Source: an uncultured bacterium | Lineage (GTDB): Bacteria; Patescibacteriota; Minisyncoccia; Phycocordibacterales; CAINVO01 | DNA: 50,003 nucleotides | Reading direction: 5' to 3' | Assembly (NCBI GenBank): GCA_903854195.1 | Contig: CAINVO010000034.1 | Coordinates: 1 to 50,003, forward strand | Part shown: positions 1 through 30,815 of the stretch, piece by piece | Layout of the letters: the number at the start of each line of letters is the position of its first letter | Position numbering within the stretch: position 1 is the stretch's first letter | Notes under the pieces: model-generated | Databases searched by the model: none | What the model was told of the DNA's origin: nothing | Seen by the model: the letters and a program-made list of their open reading frames with translations, nothing else | Program-made: the position numbers and the translations under genes

Positions 1-2438
1 AGTGATTTCACAAGTCCCTCCTACTATTCCTCCTACTGAGTATTGTAGTGAACATGTGTTGTTTGAAACAAATTTTGTTGTTGCTTTAAGTATTAGTCCT
101 GCTGGGTTTGTTGAACCGTTGTTTCCGGTGTTGGTTCCGTTACCATTTCCATTGTTATTAGTGTTCTGACATTCAGACACCCCCGTGCTTGAAGTCTGAC
201 ATTCAGAACCTGGAGAACATGAATCTACAATGTTTCCACAGCTGTCTACTACGTCACCGTTACTACAGGTATTTTGTCCACCTGCTGTTGGGCAGGTTGT
301 ATCTGGTTGGCAACTTAGTACACCAGCATCATCTGCCTGACATGAATTACCTGTTCCACAGATAGATATTGTGTTACCACAACTATCTACGATGTTACCA
401 TTGCTGCAGGCTTCTTGGCCAGACAAAGGTACGCAAGAATCAGTAACATTAAGTGTCCAATACCCTGAAGCAGATGCAAAAGGCGAACGCCAAATAATAT
501 TTGTAAAATTATACCAAGGTGGAACAGGATGATTTTCTTTAAAACCACTTGCATTTGAATTTTTCTTGCAGGTACCAGCTAGAGAATTTGAAAAACTACC
601 ATTTGAACTATAACCACACAACCAGCCAGATAAAGGCCAATAATCATTTACTGCTAAATTTAATTTTACTTTTCCTACCTGATCTGGAGCCACAAAATCC
701 CCCATGTACAGGTCGTAGTAAACAGTATACTTATGAATATGAAGGGTTGGATCAAAAGCATCAACTAATTTTGTTTTATCGAGGCTTCCTGCTTGTCCAC
801 CAGCTAATGACCAAGTTGCATCAATATAATCTGGAGTATTTTCACATGCATACATGGAAACGGTTGCATTACCTGGAAATGATTCCCCTTTTCCTATAAC
901 ACTTGGAATATTTCCGGTGACATAAACAGGCATACTGCTCTTGTATTGTTTTGTATAAACAAAACTATCCGCATTAACCTGAGTAAAAGCAAGACATAGT
1001 CCCAAAATCAAAGCAAGAATAATCAAAGCGATTGCAATCTTTTTTTTCTTTAAAAAAACAGCAACAATTGCGAGAATAATAATGATAGCTAGAGAAACAA
1101 AACCTATCACCCTTGAGATAGAACCTCTTTCACTCTGTCCAAAACCATACTGAGAAAAAGTTCCAATGGCTTTTTTAACAACTCCGTCCTTATCGTAAAC
1201 AACATTTCCTTTATAACTAAAAGTACTTGACCCTGTCACAATGGAAACTTCAGCGACCAAACTATTTGAATCTCCAGTCAATGGAATGGCCATTGCTACA
1301 AAACCAGCTATATTAATAGGTGTATTTTTAATATTTTTCTGACCTACTAAAACGTTATTTTCATTGTAAAGTGATACATTCACATCTGCATTAAATGATT
1401 CAGTTGGAACAGAACTTGAAGCGTCAGAGGGTGACAACAAGGCGGAGTTCAAATTTACCGGTTTTCCCGTATATTTAACGGCAATATCAGCAACTCCCCC
1501 TGTTTTAATTGGAGTTTGATTTGTTACATAAACAGAATCAATATTTGCGATATTTCCACCCATAATAAACCTTGCATACAACTGTGGAATTTTTGATACG
1601 CCATTTGTATCATTCAATGTTACTGATGCAAGGTAAACTCCCGGAGCTAAGTTGTTAGTTGGAATATCTAATGAAAAAAATGTACTAGTAGCTTTTGCAG
1701 ATACTTTTACAGGCTGACCAATAACATCCACCGTCCCAGGTACTGGATTGAAAGCCTTATCCAAAAAGGATATTTTAGGAGTTAAAGTTGATGAGAATTT
1801 TTTAGGATTTATAAAAGTTGCATCAAAAGTTAATCGATCTCCTTGGGTTACGGTCATACCTGTCTGTAAACCTGCTTTAATAATGCCATCACTATTTTCA
1901 AGGGTAAGATTTGCGTCTACTGGCAAAAAGATACTACTACCTGATGTAACTTTTATAGGAGAAACAAACCAACCCAAAGATGCAGCATCTTTTGTTATTA
2001 CACGAACCAAAATACCCACGTGATCCTTATTAGGCAAAACACTTAAATTATAGTTTAATTTTATAGGTAAAGAGCTTTGTCCATCAATGTTCAATGGACC
2101 ATATTTTTTTCAGCATATGTAACTGTAGCAACATGATCTGAATCATCAAGACCAACAACAGAAACGTTGTAGTAAATATCATTTGCCACGTTTCCACCTT
2201 GATTCTTTATTGTAAATGATCCGTTCAAAGTATCCCCTTCTGAGTAGTCTTTTTTATCAAGACTTAAATTAGAAATAAAAACGTTCGGAAGTGCATATAA
2301 ATCTTTCTGAAATTGAGCAATTTCAGAATCCTGATCTGACGTCGGTTCCGTCTGCGCATTTGCTAATTTCACAAACCCAACTGACAATAAAGCACACACT
2401 ACCATACCCAAAAAAACTATTTTTTTATAAATGCTCAT
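1..2438 (-). CDS. Large secreted/membrane surface protein, 5' part with signal peptide; frameshifted and cut by window edge
   Basis: Reads from an ATG at 2438 leftwards off the window. An N-terminal signal peptide (hydrophobic run ending LANAQ) is followed by CARDB-like beta domains (YSEGDTLNGSFTIKNQGGN). The starting frame ends at a TGA at 2091-2093, but the next frame is open from about 2105 to base 1. Adding one A to the A7 tract at 2104-2110 joins them (AEKKYGPLNIDGQ), giving more than 800 residues. Near 980-1105 are two membrane segments separated by KKKK; the second resembles a signal peptide (LGLCLAFTQVNADS). Further on lie two cysteine-rich repeats of the type CSNG.(I/V)VDSCGN...C...C (about 195-420) and an Asn/Gly linker. 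Role unknown; a surface location is inferred. The break may be a sequencing error, slippage or a real mutation. Confidence 0.75.
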
Positions 2439-14341: not shown

Positions 14342-17300
14342 ATGTCCAAGTTTATCCACCTACATACACACAGTCACTACAGTCTACTGAGTGCCTTACC
14401 CAAGATACCCGAGCTAGTAAAAGCTGCAAAAAATGACGGAATGAAAGCTCTTGCGCTCACAGATAACGGCAACATGTACGGTGCGATTGAGTTTTACAAG
14501 GAATGTAAAAAGAAAGAAATAAATCCGATCATTGGTGTAGATTTTTATGTTGCGGCACGCACCAGACATGACAAAGAGGGTCGCCTAGATAGTCGACACA
14601 GTCGTATTGTGATGCTTGCAAAAGACATTGAAGGCTACAGAAGCTTAATCAAACTAGTCACAACCTCTAACCTTGAAGGTTTTTATTACAAACCACGCAT
14701 CGACAAAGAACTTATTGAAAAACACTCCGCGGGACTTATTTGTATTTCGTTATCCTTTAGTGGCGATATTGCTCAAGCTGTAAAAATGGATGATTTTGAT
14801 AAGGACAAGGAACTGATTGCATGGTATAAAAAAATATTCAAAGATGATTTTTATATTGAGATCACACACCATCCAGAACTAGAAGGGCATCAAGAGAAAA
14901 TGAAAAAACTTGTTGCTCTTGCGCGAGAAACTGATACTCAAATAGTTGCCGCACAAGATGTGTATTATCTAAATCCTGAAGACCAAAAAGCACGTGACAC
15001 CCTTGTGTCCGTACAAAATGATTTTGGTGGAGGAAAAGCTTCAGGTGCAGCTGGTGCCGGAAACACAGGAGGAAACGGCACGCGCGGAGGGTTTGGAAAT
15101 GACCAAGCTGACTTTTCTTTTATTAATGGAAAAACGGCTGACAAATATTTTATTGAAGAAGATGGTATTCCAGACGCCATAGAAAATTGCGAAAAAATTG
15201 CTCAGAAATGTAACTTGGAAATAACTCTTGGCAAATGGCTATTCGCCAACTTCGAACTCCCTGCAGGACAAACAGCTGATCAAGTGTTAAACGATATCGT
15301 ATACGCGGGTATAGAAAGAAGAGGTATCGAACGCACTCAGGTGGTCCTAGACCGCGTAGAATACGAACTCAAGGTCATCAGAGACAAAGGATATGCACCT
15401 TACTTTCTAACTGTGGCCGATCTTCTTAAATATGCACATGAAAACGGTATTCTTACAAACATTCGAGGATCTGTGGCCGGGTCCATGGTCACTTACCTTT
15501 CATATATTACCAACATCAATCCAATTGAGTTTATGCTACCTTTCGAGCGTTTCCTCAACCCTCTCCGTCCATCTGCTCCCGATATCGATATGGACTTTGC
15601 CGACAACCGACGTGACGAAATGATTGAGTACGCACGGAAAAAATATGGCCGCGACAAGGTTGCTCAAATTGGAACATTCGGAACCATGATGGCACGTGGC
15701 TCCGTACGTGATGTTACCCGAGCACTTGGTTTTCCTTATGCTCTTGGTGACCGTCTTTCAAAACTCATACCTATGGGTTCACAAGGTTTTCCAATGACAC
15801 TAGAAAAGGCTCTTGAAATAACACCCGAGCTTGAGAAAGCCTACAAACAAGAGAAAGATGCACATGAGATTATAGACATGGCAAAAAAAATTGAAGGCTG
15901 TGCAAGACACATTTCTGTGCATGCTGCAGGTGTCGTTATTTCTCCTGTACCACTTACTGATCTAGTACCACTCCAATACGACACCAAAGGTGATGAGAAA
16001 ATTATCACCCAGTACGACATGTACTCAGTAGATGAAAACAATGTTGGACTTTTGAAGTTTGACTTTCTTGGTATCAAAAACCTTTCTATTCTTGCAAATG
16101 CCATTGCCCTTGTAAAAAAAATTGAAGATGTAGAAGTAAACTTAGAACGAGTACCCATTGATGATTTAAAAACTTTCCAAATGCTAGCAAAGGGTGAAAC
16201 TGAAGGAGTCTTTCAGCTCAACGGTTCAGGAATGACACGTGCACTAGTCGACCTCAAACCAACAAGTATTCATGATATCAACGTGATGGTGGCGCTCTAT
16301 CGTCCAGGACCGATGGACACAATCGAAGAATACACCGCACGTAAACACGGTAAAAAACGTGTTACATATTACCATCCAAAAATGAAAAAGTTTCTGGAAA
16401 GAACATTCGGACTACTTGTATATCAAGATGACCTTTTGTACACGGCGCTTGAACTTGCTGGATACAACTGGGAAACCGTAGATAAGTTTCGTAAGGCTAT
16501 TGGTAAAAAAATTCCAGAGGAAATGGCAAAGCAACATGAAATTTTCGTAAAGGGATGTATAGAGTTCAGTGCCATGTCAAAAAAGGACGCTGAAACTATT
16601 TGGAAACTTTTTGAACCGTTCCAAGGATATGGTTTCAACAAAGCACACGCTGCGAGTTATGGACTTTTGGCATATCAGACCGGCTACATGAAAGCCAATT
16701 TCCCTGCTATTTATATGGCCGCTGTACTTACCGCTGATGCTGGAGATGTAGAAAAAATTGGAGCCTTTATTGCTGAGTGTAAGCGCATGAAAATTCCGGT
16801 ACTTCCTCCAGACATAAACGAAAGCTTCCGAGATTTTACAGTTATCAAATCTGAAACTGAAACTTTCGAAGAAACCCAACCCGATGGATCAATTATAATA
16901 AAACCACTCGAAAAAATTCGCTTTGGTCTTTTGACTATTAAAAATTTTGGAGAAAGTATTGGAAATGTCATCATCGAAGAACGCAAAAGGGGTGGACACT
17001 TCAAATCTCTAGAGGATTTTTTAAACCGAATAAAAGATCGAAACTTAAACAAAAAATCTCTAGAGGCACTCATAAAAGCCGGGGCTATGGATGCCTTTGG
17101 TGACCGTGGAGTGATGCTTGCAAATTCTGAGGATCTGCTCGAATACAACAAAGAAACACACAAGGCTCCAGCCAATCAAGATTCACTTTTTGCATCAATT
17201 CAGTCCGCTGATTCCAATGAGAACCTCCCCTCTCTTCGTCTCAAAGAAGCACCAAATGCCACACCATCAGAAAAACTTAACTGGGAAAAAGAACTACTTG

Positions 17301-17671
17301 GTTTGTATATTTCCGGACATCCATTAGACAAATATCGTCAAATACTCGACAAGAGGGATGTCAATATTTCAAAAATAAAAGGTGAATCTGCTGGAGGATT
17401 TGGACCAGGAATAAAAGAAGATAGTGAAATAGTTATTGGAGTAATCATCGAAGAAGTACGCGAAATTCTAACAAAGAAAGATCAGTCACGTATGTTATTT
17501 ATCAGAATTGCTGATTTTACAGGATCAATCGAAGCGGTAGTTTTTCCACGAACATTTGCTGAATTTAAAAATACTTTTGTTACTGACCGATGTGTTGCAA
17601 TCAAAGGAAAAGTATCAGACCGCAATGGAGAAAAGAGTGTAATCGTAGAGAGTGTGAAAGTCTTGCAATAA
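14342..17671 (+). CDS. dnaE: DNA polymerase III subunit alpha
   Basis: Replicative DNA polymerase catalytic subunit, 1109 residues. The N-terminal PHP domain is seen as HLHTHSHYSLLSALPKI and LALTDNGNMYGAIEF. Palm catalytic aspartates are in PDIDMDFADNRR (about 412-423). Fingers and HhH regions follow, with a C-terminal OB fold (about 995-1095: VIGVIIEEVREILTKKDQ, VKVLQ end). A glycine-rich insertion (residues 226-250, GGGKASGAAGAGNTGG) sits in the PHP-palm region and looks like a flexible loop. The usual tau-binding tail appears minimal. The stop codon abuts a three-way-junction hairpin. Confidence 0.97.
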   Translation: MSKFIHLHTHSHYSLLSALPKIPELVKAAKNDGMKALALTDNGNMYGAIEFYKECKKKEINPIIGVDFYVAARTRHDKEGRLDSRHSRIVMLAKDIEGYRSLIKLVTTSNLEGFYYKPRIDKELIEKHSAGLICISLSFSGDIAQAVKMDDFDKDKELIAWYKKIFKDDFYIEITHHPELEGHQEKMKKLVALARETDTQIVAAQDVYYLNPEDQKARDTLVSVQNDFGGGKASGAAGAGNTGGNGTRGGFGNDQADFSFINGKTADKYFIEEDGIPDAIENCEKIAQKCNLEITLGKWLFANFELPAGQTADQVLNDIVYAGIERRGIERTQVVLDRVEYELKVIRDKGYAPYFLTVADLLKYAHENGILTNIRGSVAGSMVTYLSYITNINPIEFMLPFERFLNPLRPSAPDIDMDFADNRRDEMIEYARKKYGRDKVAQIGTFGTMMARGSVRDVTRALGFPYALGDRLSKLIPMGSQGFPMTLEKALEITPELEKAYKQEKDAHEIIDMAKKIEGCARHISVHAAGVVISPVPLTDLVPLQYDTKGDEKIITQYDMYSVDENNVGLLKFDFLGIKNLSILANAIALVKKIEDVEVNLERVPIDDLKTFQMLAKGETEGVFQLNGSGMTRALVDLKPTSIHDINVMVALYRPGPMDTIEEYTARKHGKKRVTYYHPKMKKFLERTFGLLVYQDDLLYTALELAGYNWETVDKFRKAIGKKIPEEMAKQHEIFVKGCIEFSAMSKKDAETIWKLFEPFQGYGFNKAHAASYGLLAYQTGYMKANFPAIYMAAVLTADAGDVEKIGAFIAECKRMKIPVLPPDINESFRDFTVIKSETETFEETQPDGSIIIKPLEKIRFGLLTIKNFGESIGNVIIEERKRGGHFKSLEDFLNRIKDRNLNKKSLEALIKAGAMDAFGDRGVMLANSEDLLEYNKETHKAPANQDSLFASIQSADSNENLPSLRLKEAPNATPSEKLNWEKELLGLYISGHPLDKYRQILDKRDVNISKIKGESAGGFGPGIKEDSEIVIGVIIEEVREILTKKDQSRMLFIRIADFTGSIEAVVFPRTFAEFKNTFVTDRCVAIKGKVSDRNGEKSVIVESVKVLQ

Positions 17672-17794: not shown

Positions 17795-18959
17795 TTACGC
17801 TATCAAACCACGATTCTTCATGTTCTCAATTTTAAACTGAGCAGCAAGACTTTGAGAATTTGATGTTGAAACATTTCCAGCAAGTTGAGCTTTGCGATTC
17901 TTACGTGCAATGAATATGTAAGTCATGAATGCACTCCACATTAGAAGTCCTAGGATAAATAGACCAACTTTCAAGTTGAAACTAATACCAGTTGCGGGCA
18001 CTTGATTTAGAAAGACACCAGCGACAGGAGTACCATTAGTAGGTGTGATATCACGAGTGACAGTTACACCAGCAGTGTTAATGTTTCCAACATTTGTGTT
18101 ACAACTTCGAGAGATGGACTGACCATCTGTAGATGTGATAGTAACTGTTGCTGTTTTGTATCCAGCTGTTGCATACATACCTGTAATACTTTGACCATTT
18201 CCATAAAGGTTATCTGATCCTGTCCAAGAATAACTGAATGATCCGCTTCCACCTGATGCAGTTGCTGACCAAGTTACTGGAGTATTAATTCCACTTCCTG
18301 TGTAAGAAACTACACAAGATCCACTCATTGCTGAATAGTTTGTAGCATTATTTCCATAATATCCATTTGGATAGTAAACACCATTGTTGTAATAGTTAAC
18401 GGCTAACTGATTATTACTATTGTTTCCATTATTATTGTTATTGTTTGAAACTATTGTTGTATTGTTTGTACTCCCAGAAGTTGTTCTTTGTGGAATATAA
18501 ACGTAGTGACTTGCCTGAGGCATATAAGTGTAACCACCGCCTGTAGAATATCCACCATTGTATGAGTAACCATGTGAAGCACATGATGAACAAGAAGATC
18601 CTGAACTATATGAACTAGTTGGTACGTATGTATCGTAGTTGGAAGTTCCTGAATATGAAGGGGTGTATGTATGTGTATGTATCGTAATTTGATGTACCAG
18701 AACTTGAGGGAGTATATGTGTAAGTATCATAGTTGGATGTACCTGAACTTGATGGAGTGTAAGTATCATAGTTGGATGTACCTGTATCATATGTATCGTA
18801 GTTGGAAGTTCCAGTATCAAAAGTATCATAATTAGATGTACCGTAATCTACTGAATCCCCTCCACCAGCATAAACTTTTACAGACAACCCGACAAAAACA
18901 ATTGAAAACACCATTATTACTGTAGTGATTTGAATTATTTTATTTAGTATATTTTTCAT
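17795..18959 (-). CDS. Surface protein with TSNYDTY repeats and C-terminal membrane anchor; frameshifted
   Basis: Starts at 18959 with a signal peptide (IIQITTVIMVFSIVFVGLSVKVYAGG), then six GTSNYDTY repeats (about 18620-18845). The starting frame reaches a TAG at 18615, while the rest is open in another frame to 17795. Removing 4 nt from the duplicated GTATGTAT region (18664-18681) restores one frame of about 385 residues. Downstream are Ser/Tyr/Gly- and Asn-rich stretches, a PKD-like beta domain (VTWSATASGGSGSFSYSW), and a C-terminal membrane helix (VGLFILGLLMWSAFMTYIFIA) with a basic tail. No LPxTG. A Tyr-rich surface filament or adhesin is possible; function unknown. Confidence 0.75.
18620..18845 (-). 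repeat. Tandem GTSNYDTY-coding repeats
   Basis: Six imperfect copies of a unit encoding GTSNYDTY followed by DT or TPSSS-like spacers, inside the surface-protein gene. Copies share most bases, making the region prone to slippage. The frame break lies within it. Confidence 0.85.
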
Positions 18960-19113: not shown

Positions 19114-19848
19114 TTACTGAATGTAGGTTGAGAACCATTCGGTTCCGCGATTCCGTGACACCCTGACCGATTTCCAGTCAGGCCCATACTTGTTGATTAC
19201 CGACTGAGGTAATGCGCAGTCTGCCATAATCCCACCATTGTGACCAACTAACGCCGTCACCATGCGAGGACCTTCACCCTCGATGTTCAATGTGAGTCTG
19301 GCAGTTGTGAAGCCGCCATCGTATTTTGGGGCCAAAGTCCCCGCATTGACCATTGTCATCCTCGGCTTGGCCACCAGTCTTTCGACATTGGGCCGTCCGG
19401 GGGGGAGAACTTCTGGTTGCTGGCGATCGTCATCAACCCCAACTCCGACGAACTGCCGGTCATCGATAACCTTCCTTTGGGGAAGATCGGCGATTGCTGA
19501 GTAGGCGTAGAGCCCTGCCCAAAGAACCAGCATCAAACCGAGAAGCACCAATACCAGCACTCCAAACCCTTCCAGTACTTGACGGAGCGTTGTCCGACGA
19601 GTCGTTGTTGTGGTTGTCCGTGTTGCCCGAGGGGCAGACGGTGGAGGTGTTCCTAGATCTGGCATCGTGTTGTGCACATGCACAACAACGGGTTGCTGAG
19701 CGGCTGCTGCTTGACCTTGCGGGCGAGGAGTAGCTGCTGCGGCTGGTGTTGCAGGAGTTCCGGCAGCGGGTGCTGTTGGAACGTTTGTTGCGGCGGCGGG
19801 AGCGTTTGCACGACCACCACCACGACGAGGATTATTTCCAGTTGCCAT
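19114..19848 (-). CDS. Hypothetical single-pass membrane protein with Ala/Pro/Thr-rich N-terminus
   Basis: 244 residues from the ATG at 19848; in-frame ATG 19854 or GTG 19893 are alternatives and no Shine-Dalgarno decides. The N-terminal ~80 residues are low-complexity (Ala, Pro, Thr, Arg), then one membrane helix (VLEGFGVLVLVLLGLMLVLWAGLYAY) and an external domain of about 120 residues (ALVGHNGGIMADCALPQ, WKSVRVSRNRGTEWFSTYIQ). No family recognised. Codon use is far more G+C-rich than neighbouring genes. It has a consensus promoter and a long leader. Lies between two surface-protein genes, so a cell-envelope role is plausible. Confidence 0.65.
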   Translation of the reverse strand: MATGNNPRRGGGRANAPAAATNVPTAPAAGTPATPAAAATPRPQGQAAAAQQPVVVHVHNTMPDLGTPPPSAPRATRTTTTTTRRTTLRQVLEGFGVLVLVLLGLMLVLWAGLYAYSAIADLPQRKVIDDRQFVGVGVDDDRQQPEVLPPGRPNVERLVAKPRMTMVNAGTLAPKYDGGFTTARLTLNIEGEGPRMVTALVGHNGGIMADCALPQSVINKYGPDWKSVRVSRNRGTEWFSTYIQ

Positions 19849-19879
19849 TATCATTTGCGCCGTTATCGGGCGACTTGGT

Positions 19880-19893
19880 TTGTGCTTTCGCAC
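19880..19893 (-). promoter_or_regulatory. GAAA-tetraloop hairpin in the leader of the 19114-19848 gene
   Basis: GTGC-GAAA-GCAC on the minus strand, within the long leader. A GNRA loop on a 4-bp stem is small but could be structured or a protein site. Confidence 0.3.
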
Positions 19894-20041: not shown

Positions 20042-20782
20042 CTATATTATAGGGCTTTTATCAACAAAGTCAGCTTGTACAACATAGCGATCCGTTTTTT
20101 TACCAAAACTATCACACGTCGAAAGTGTAAGCATAGGGCTAGTTTTATCAAAGTCTACCCAAGAATTATTCTCATTTTGCAAAACTACAGTTCGCACCTT
20201 ATATACATAATGTGTGCTACTTGAATAAACATCTATAATATCGCCGGCTGCAAGCTTATCTAATCCATTAAAAGCCTTGTAAGCTTTATTATTTACGATT
20301 TTAAAACCTGTACTATGTCCAAATAGAAACATATTTCCTGATCCTGGAGTGCCAGACCCTGGGTAATGAACAACGCCTTTTGAAAGCTCTTGGTCCAAGT
20401 AGTCAACATCAGTAGTGTTTGGGTTACGGACAACAATATCAGTTCCTGATTTAATAATCACAACCCGAAGAGGAATATCACCTACTTGTATTTTTTGGGC
20501 CTTATTCTGAGCATTATTTAATACATTTTGGTCTGTAGTTGTGGTAACAGAATTATCCCCTTTTATCACAGAAAGTGACCATGCGTTCAAATTATCAAAA
20601 AAGTTAGTGGAAGTATCTTCTTGAAACTCACTTGGAACAAACCCAATTATATACAGGACTGTAAAGCTTAAAATAAAAATCGGAATAAAGAAAAGTCCGA
20701 ATTGAAACTCTGGATATTTTAAAAGATGTTTCCAAATTGTCCTTATTTTACTATCCTTGTTGTTACTCATATTAGTTGACAT
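20042..20782 (-). CDS. Sortase family transpeptidase
   Basis: Membrane-anchored cysteine transpeptidase that links surface proteins to the envelope or to each other. 246 residues with one N-terminal membrane helix (27-49). The sortase barrel has His156 (LFGHSTGF), Cys223 (TLSTC) and Arg232 (TDRYVVQA), the full catalytic set. The HYPGSGTPGSGN segment is like class D/E enzymes. No LPxTG-type signal is seen in the two nearby surface proteins whose C-termini are visible, so substrates are probably elsewhere. Divergent from the CARDB gene with overlapping promoters. Confidence 0.93.
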   Translation of the reverse strand: MSTNMSNNKDSKIRTIWKHLLKYPEFQFGLFFIPIFILSFTVLYIIGFVPSEFQEDTSTNFFDNLNAWSLSVIKGDNSVTTTTDQNVLNNAQNKAQKIQVGDIPLRVVIIKSGTDIVVRNPNTTDVDYLDQELSKGVVHYPGSGTPGSGNMFLFGHSTGFKIVNNKAYKAFNGLDKLAAGDIIDVYSSSTHYVYKVRTVVLQNENNSWVDFDKTSPMLTLSTCDSFGKKTDRYVVQADFVDKSPII

Positions 20783-29780: not shown

Positions 29781-29848
29781 AAAAATCCTTATATTCTTTT
29801 TGCGAGTTAGCGGAACGCTTTAGCAAAAAAAAAAATATAAGGGTTTTT
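29781..29848. terminator. Hairpin with GGGTTAG-type loop between DUF1653 and prfA (copy 2)
   Basis: AAAAA-TCCTTATATT pairs with AATATAAGGG-TTTTT, then TTTTTGC with GCAAAAA. The 19-nt loop is GAGTTAGCGGAACGCTTTA, in which AGCG-GAA-CGCT can pair. The right arm overlaps the prfA stop. Serves two convergent genes. Confidence 0.7.
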
Positions 29849-30815
29849 ATTTTTCCAAACCAGCCTGGTACTGCTCCAAACTCTGAATAATAGCATCCAT
29901 TTTACCCAAGAAAATACCTTCAATATTGTGCCAAGATTCTTTTATACGGTGGTCAGTCACGCGATCCTGAAGAATGTTATACGTACGGATCTTCTCTGAT
30001 CTATCCCCTGTTCCTATTTGAGCCTTTCTGTTGGCAGCAAATTTTTTGGCATCTTCTTCTTGTTTCATTGCTTCAAGTTTAGCCAAAAGAATAGACATTG
30101 CCTTTTCACGATTTTTAAGCTGACTGCGCTCACTAGTTGAACGAACATCAATACCTGTTGGCTTGTGAATAAGACGTACAGCTGTTTCAACTTTATTAAC
30201 ATTTTGACCACCAGCACCTCCAGATCTAGAGAATTCCATTTCAATATCTACAGGATTAATTTCTATACTGATTTTTTTACGAATAGGAAGAATGGCAACT
30301 GATGCAGTAGATGTGTGTACGCGTCCCATTTTTTCTGTTGCAGGTACTCGCTGTATACGATGCACTCCTGTTTCAAAGCGGAGTAATCTGTAAACATCAA
30401 GACCGTGTATTTCAATGGAGGCTTCTTTATAGCCGCCGACCGCGCTTTCTGACTCGGAGACAATGTGACTAGTCCAACCGCGGGAGGCGGCAAAAGCTCG
30501 ATACATGTCAGCTAGCTCTCGAGCAAAAAGTGAAGCTTCTTCCCCTCCGGCACCGGCACGAACTTCAAGAATAATTTCTGATGGAAACTCCTCTTCTTTT
30601 TCTTCAGCCTTCAAGATATCCTGCATTTTTTCCAACAATGTCTTTTGTTGTAGATCTAGGTCAACAAGTTCGGCGTCTGCCATTTCTTTAAAAGCAGGAT
30701 CACTTTCAGCCATAATCAAAACTTCTCCGCGTTGTCGACTGAGTTTTTCATACTCACCTGCCCAATAATTAGTCTTGGGATTTTGTTTAAATTGTTCTAG
30801 GTTTATTTCTGACAT
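29847..30815 (-). CDS. prfA: Peptide chain release factor 1
   Basis: Reads UAA and UAG stop codons and triggers peptide release. 322 residues, shorter than the usual 360 at the N-terminus. The anticodon-like PAT motif lies in [20 protein letters not shown] and the GGQ loop in [20 protein letters not shown]. No RF2 gene is in the window. Nearly all genes here end in TAA or TAG, the codons this factor reads. Convergent with DUF1653. Confidence 0.96.

Follow-up and report, generated by a model that had tools for sequence, protein, structure and literature searches.

LPXTG-type sortase substrates and the locus described here share a signal peptide, a P-x-T-G motif, a hydrophobic stretch, basic residues, and a sortase in the same genome. 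A sortase family found throughout the CPR has been described, almost universal in Microgenomates and of patchy occurrence in other lineages according to the accessible part of the source (PMC6744442), and surface proteins with sortase motifs are mentioned for CPR bacteria in general in the excerpted text of another report (PMC5220378). The hypervariable PTD-repeat surface protein of Gracilibacterium, as far as the accessible text of its description goes (PMC6851277), is likewise a CPR protein with short repeats in which codons vary synonymously and the amino acids are kept, and its repeat region was likewise troublesome to assemble; it differs in its repeat and its anchor, and no frame break is reported in that portion of the paper. 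The tetranucleotide simple sequence repeat (SSR) contingency loci of Haemophilus influenzae resemble the present locus in the 4-nt step, the surface product, and the truncation after a slip. A literature search of partial coverage returned no description of the anchor motif or the substrate presented below.

The locus lies in a 50,003-nt stretch of DNA (the window) from a draft assembly of 45 contigs, referred to here as G000. Its features are as follows:

14342..17671, plus strand: dnaE, the convergent neighbour, which anchored synteny with the sister species
17795..18829, minus strand: ORF B; the coding frame takes over at about 18658, and the in-frame part, 17795..18658, is the rest of the protein
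17987..18001, minus strand: VPATG of a sorting-signal-like anchor, followed by a hydrophobic stretch and then basic residues
18110..18283, minus strand: weak PKD_4-like region
18615..18959, minus strand: ORF A, 114 aa; start, signal-peptide-like N-terminus and TSNYDTY repeats, followed by some 20 codons out of frame before a stop
18626..18842, minus strand: imperfect tandem array; its units of 30-49 nt encode GTSNYDTY, and the motif occurs six times
18664..18681, no strand assigned: where the 4 surplus nt lie; the tract reads either as TGTA x2.75 or, over 18663-18682, as a perfect 10-nt doublet, GTGTATGTAT x2
20042..20782, minus strand: sortase gene (PF04203, 74 bits), on the same strand and ~1.1 kb upstream of ORF A

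The C-terminal signal of the surface protein is an LPxTG-like one with VPATG in place of LPxTG, and its tail of ~36 residues has a conserved end of its own, which sets it apart from LPXTG-type substrates. Profile searches with this C-terminal end recovered a shared anchor, consisting of L-x-x-[VI]-P-x-T-G, a hydrophobic stretch, and basic residues; the motif was present in all 30 anchors. The survey covered 60 genomes (G000 and 59 relatives): 25 carried the anchor, 29 carried a PF04203 sortase, and 31 had neither. A sortase was present in every one of the 25 anchor genomes (Fisher 4.6e-13, a P value that overstates independence because the genomes are related); the anchor profile was partly built from the surveyed genomes, and the sortase was sought independently. 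Most anchors (21 of 30) had a same-strand sortase no more than 3.1 kb away, two were farther from one on the same contig, and seven were on contigs without a sortase. G000 itself has exactly one sortase (20042-20782) and one anchor. Among the 29 other anchor proteins, 19 start within the fetched locus and ten are cut by its edge; 17 of these 19 can be read without a frame change from a signal-like N-terminus through to the anchor, and two have no signal by a hydropathy rule.

These associations suggest that the surface protein is probably the substrate of the sortase at 20042-20782. More broadly, the sortase and the [VI]P-x-TG anchored protein (in G000 at 20042-20782 and 17798-18079) look like a dedicated sortase-substrate pair of this order. 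The pair, with its shared anchor, is retained in many families of a single order of small bacteria that resemble symbionts. The sortase also departs from LPXTG-type systems in scoring below every NCBIfam class cut-off: the best match was SrtD (46.4 against a cut-off of 140), followed by class E (45.1 against 160) and class D (44.5 against 165).

The interval from the surface gene to the sortase contains an Ala/Pro-rich ORF (19114-19893, minus strand) with a GC content of 0.51-0.59, compared with about 0.35 around it. It had no Pfam match and is possibly foreign.

The sequence-only reading had quoted a plus-strand string for 18664-18681 and had placed there a 4-nt tandem duplication breaking a secreted repeat protein gene. 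The string is present as given, and the duplication was borne out, as two minus-strand frames lie +4 nt out of register. Five TSNYDT copies precede the frame loss in ORF A, whose N-terminus looks like a signal peptide on inspection. The continuation in ORF B begins with the sixth copy and also holds a low-complexity segment, the weak PKD-like region, and the C-terminal anchor. The starts of the TSNYDT units are spaced 30, 30, 39, 45, and 49 nt apart; the last interval alone is not a multiple of 3 and is the equivalent of 4 extra nt. A codon-model Viterbi scan to which the site was not supplied located a change of frame at 18671 and gave both flanks positive scores for coding (27.9 over 96 codons and 77.2 over 292). 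The PKD-like region of the broken protein scored 19.1 bits against PF18911, below the Pfam gathering cut-off of 27; three of the eight related proteins scanned (L004, L008, and L011) exceeded that cut-off. ORF B as a separately started gene was considered and rejected, the upstream ATG at 18829 having no clear ribosome site (by inspection only).

The frame break is, judging by the pattern of substitutions and the ortholog, recent. Across the six 24-nt repeat units (15 pairwise comparisons), pS was 0.74 and pN 0.018; of the eight variable columns, seven fall on third codon positions and one, in the first unit, on a second position. The same synonymous pattern holds for the sixth unit, which lies past the break. 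Since units on both sides share their amino acids at these pS and pN values, the array must have been read in a single frame until recently. G001, a sister species of the same genus, has a syntenic, intact ortholog of 368 aa in one frame beside dnaE, and the C-terminal end is the best conserved part of the comparison; 29 ORFs of the window had some counterpart in the sample of this sister genome. Together, the synonymous pattern and the intact ortholog indicate a frame that was continuous until recently, whether in the organism or up to assembly. The gene is conserved and, the break aside, undamaged; downstream of the break we saw no second disabling change, which fits an artefact equally well. 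In the first samples, GC content was 0.35 in G000 and 0.44 in G001, despite the shared genus and DnaE proteins that are 80% identical.

By itself, the frame break is most probably a recent null allele of an ordinary kind, or else an artefact, and the value of the locus comes from its sortase-substrate context. We favour a genuine recent slippage null allele in the assembled strain over an assembly error or a reversible switch, giving it about an even chance. The gene would encode a secreted surface protein with a signal peptide, short repeats, a PKD-like region, and a C-terminal VPATG anchor, and this protein would be the probable substrate of the sortase encoded by the adjacent gene. A slipped-strand event in the TGTA/TGTATG-rich stretch of one repeat unit may have produced the 4-nt duplication in the assembled strain. 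The ribosome would then leave the frame at about codon 97 and meet a stop about 20 codons further on, so that the anchor would not be made. Against a fixed loss stands the observation that this is the only anchor-bearing gene found in G000 and that the sortase is intact, which makes such a loss somewhat surprising.

An error of local assembly or consensus in this draft metagenome-type genome, with a continuous frame in the living population, is a substantial possibility, though the lesser one. Precedents are available in the accessible parts of two reports: curation of a 1.13-Mb CPR genome met 13 local errors, one of them in a multi-repeat protein gene (PMC7111523), and in a second genome misassembly affected the repeat locus of a CPR surface protein (PMC6851277). 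The conserved and otherwise undamaged state of the gene also agrees with an error, as do two other breaks in G000, both one-base frame changes, at A7 and T6 runs. The repeat assembly error for which the sequence-only reading had allowed keeps real weight, but the repeats do not require it: within the half of the genome that was sampled, the tract is not spanned by any exact repeat, and exact repeats overlapping it reach 12 nt at most. The longest exact repeat starting anywhere in 18590-18869 is 28 nt, and the 20-mer of the tract occurs nowhere else in the whole genome, even when up to 3 mismatches are allowed. The insert duplicates its local sequence exactly and in tandem. As the tract is not covered by any exact repeat, misjoined repeat copies (at a word length of ~20 or more) would not yield this insert; a neat tandem duplication is also unlike the usual sign of a chimeric join.

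Both breaks in the window do fall in genes for secreted proteins, as the sequence-only reading had pointed out, but a genome-wide confinement to such genes did not hold. The other window break, a one-base frame change, adjoins the A7 run at about 2100. The gene that it hits (1-2438, minus strand) encodes a secreted protein, runs off the contig, and has no counterpart in G001; this break is not in a comparable repeat. Elsewhere in the same genome, the gene of an HI0933-like flavoprotein is split at the T6 run (L078:1948-3271, minus strand), and both halves match PF03486 in order. With this cytoplasmic protein split as well, breaks are not restricted to surface genes.

The flavoprotein break came from an ortholog test of 193 G001 proteins against 406 kb of G000, which flagged four breaks in three places. 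The flag at L078 is real, given its two PF03486 halves in order; L082 (two flags) and L046 lie beside tRNA-like sequence and were judged spurious by eye. The test missed both known breaks of the window, since cross-species alignment of repeats is poor and G001 lacks a counterpart of the gene at 1-2438, and its rate is therefore a lower bound. In the reverse direction, 194 G000 proteins against G001 gave two flags, L059 and L094. At L059:14299-14948 (minus strand) a G001 gene is split between two frames in what looks like a real break; its G000 counterpart has a weak TraC match, below the cut-off. A smaller earlier run with 61 proteins each way had given 0 and 1 flags and was superseded by the larger one.

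Two further screens were run on gene calls. The Viterbi scan returned 13 candidates among 835 G000 gene calls, and only the switch at 18671 was kept: five others were put down to gene overlap, to frames open throughout, or to the head of a gene that follows a tRNA, and the remaining seven had a first segment of at most 18 codons. In G001 it gave two raw candidates among 965 gene calls. The scan is insensitive, having missed the L078 break and the one at 2100. An ab initio frame-break screen, with 23 candidates in G000 and 25 in G001, was set aside for its noise; many of the candidates looked at were alternative frames of a single gene.

It is improbable that the tract is a contingency locus, often and reversibly gaining and losing 4-nt units and so turning the surface protein off and on. 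The surface product, the 4-nt unit, the position of the tract within the first quarter of the gene, and truncation soon after the slip would all suit such a locus, and the intact G001 ortholog could represent its ON form in the genus. The pattern of contingency loci proposed in the sequence-only reading nevertheless found no support: the tract is too short, long SSRs are missing from 406 kb of the genome, and a non-surface gene, the cytoplasmic one described above, is broken as well. The TGTA tract measures 11 nt, or 2.75 units, and thus differs from the Haemophilus loci, for which an SSR survey, according to its accessible text, required at least 3 units to call a tetranucleotide SSR (PMC2651432). 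Our sample comprised 24 unmasked stretches totalling 406,018 of the 814,274 bases of G000. It contained 1,399 tetranucleotide tracts of at least 8 nt, 136 of at least 10 nt, 16 of at least 12 nt, and none of at least 16 nt; the longest was 14 nt. The duplication in the supposed simple repeat is thus real, but the tract is not a notable SSR. Several such tracts in one genome, which we had looked for as a mark of contingency loci, were not found in this sample, and in this too the genome half differs from Haemophilus influenzae with its set of loci. Tandem repeats at the ortholog locus (score at least 30) have units of 6, 7, 10, 12, and 42 nt, none of them tetranucleotide. The perfect 10-nt doublet at the tract is the sole one of its kind in the 406-kb sample and marks a local duplication, not hypermutability.

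The fullest form of this idea is a long shot: a reversible 4-nt slippage switch governing whether the cell, a Parcubacteria-like member of the CPR judging by gene content and the search results, displays or withholds its one anchored sortase substrate. If true, this would make the site a contingency locus that operates on a minimal tract embedded in a coding repeat. A search of titles and abstracts found no phase variation described in this group, and real length variation would mean a surface-display switch in a group for which the literature searched holds none.

Recoding, in which a +1 ribosomal shift at the junction (in-frame ATA CAC CCC TTC) would give the full-length protein, can draw on the CCC-T that adjoins the break, CCC followed by T being a slippery context for +1 shifts, but it is hardly credible when the intact G001 ortholog requires no shift, no conserved shift site was seen, and no stop codon stands at the site as a shift stimulus.

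Two minor observations concern the rest of the contig. Its end is a shared node, with bases 1-141 identical to the start of another G000 contig (C40) and bases 1-420 matching the beginning of C12 (a paralogous gene) at 91% identity. At 29825, just outside a prfA-like ORF (29847-30815), stands an A11 run, which no other homopolymer of the 406-kb sample exceeds in length.
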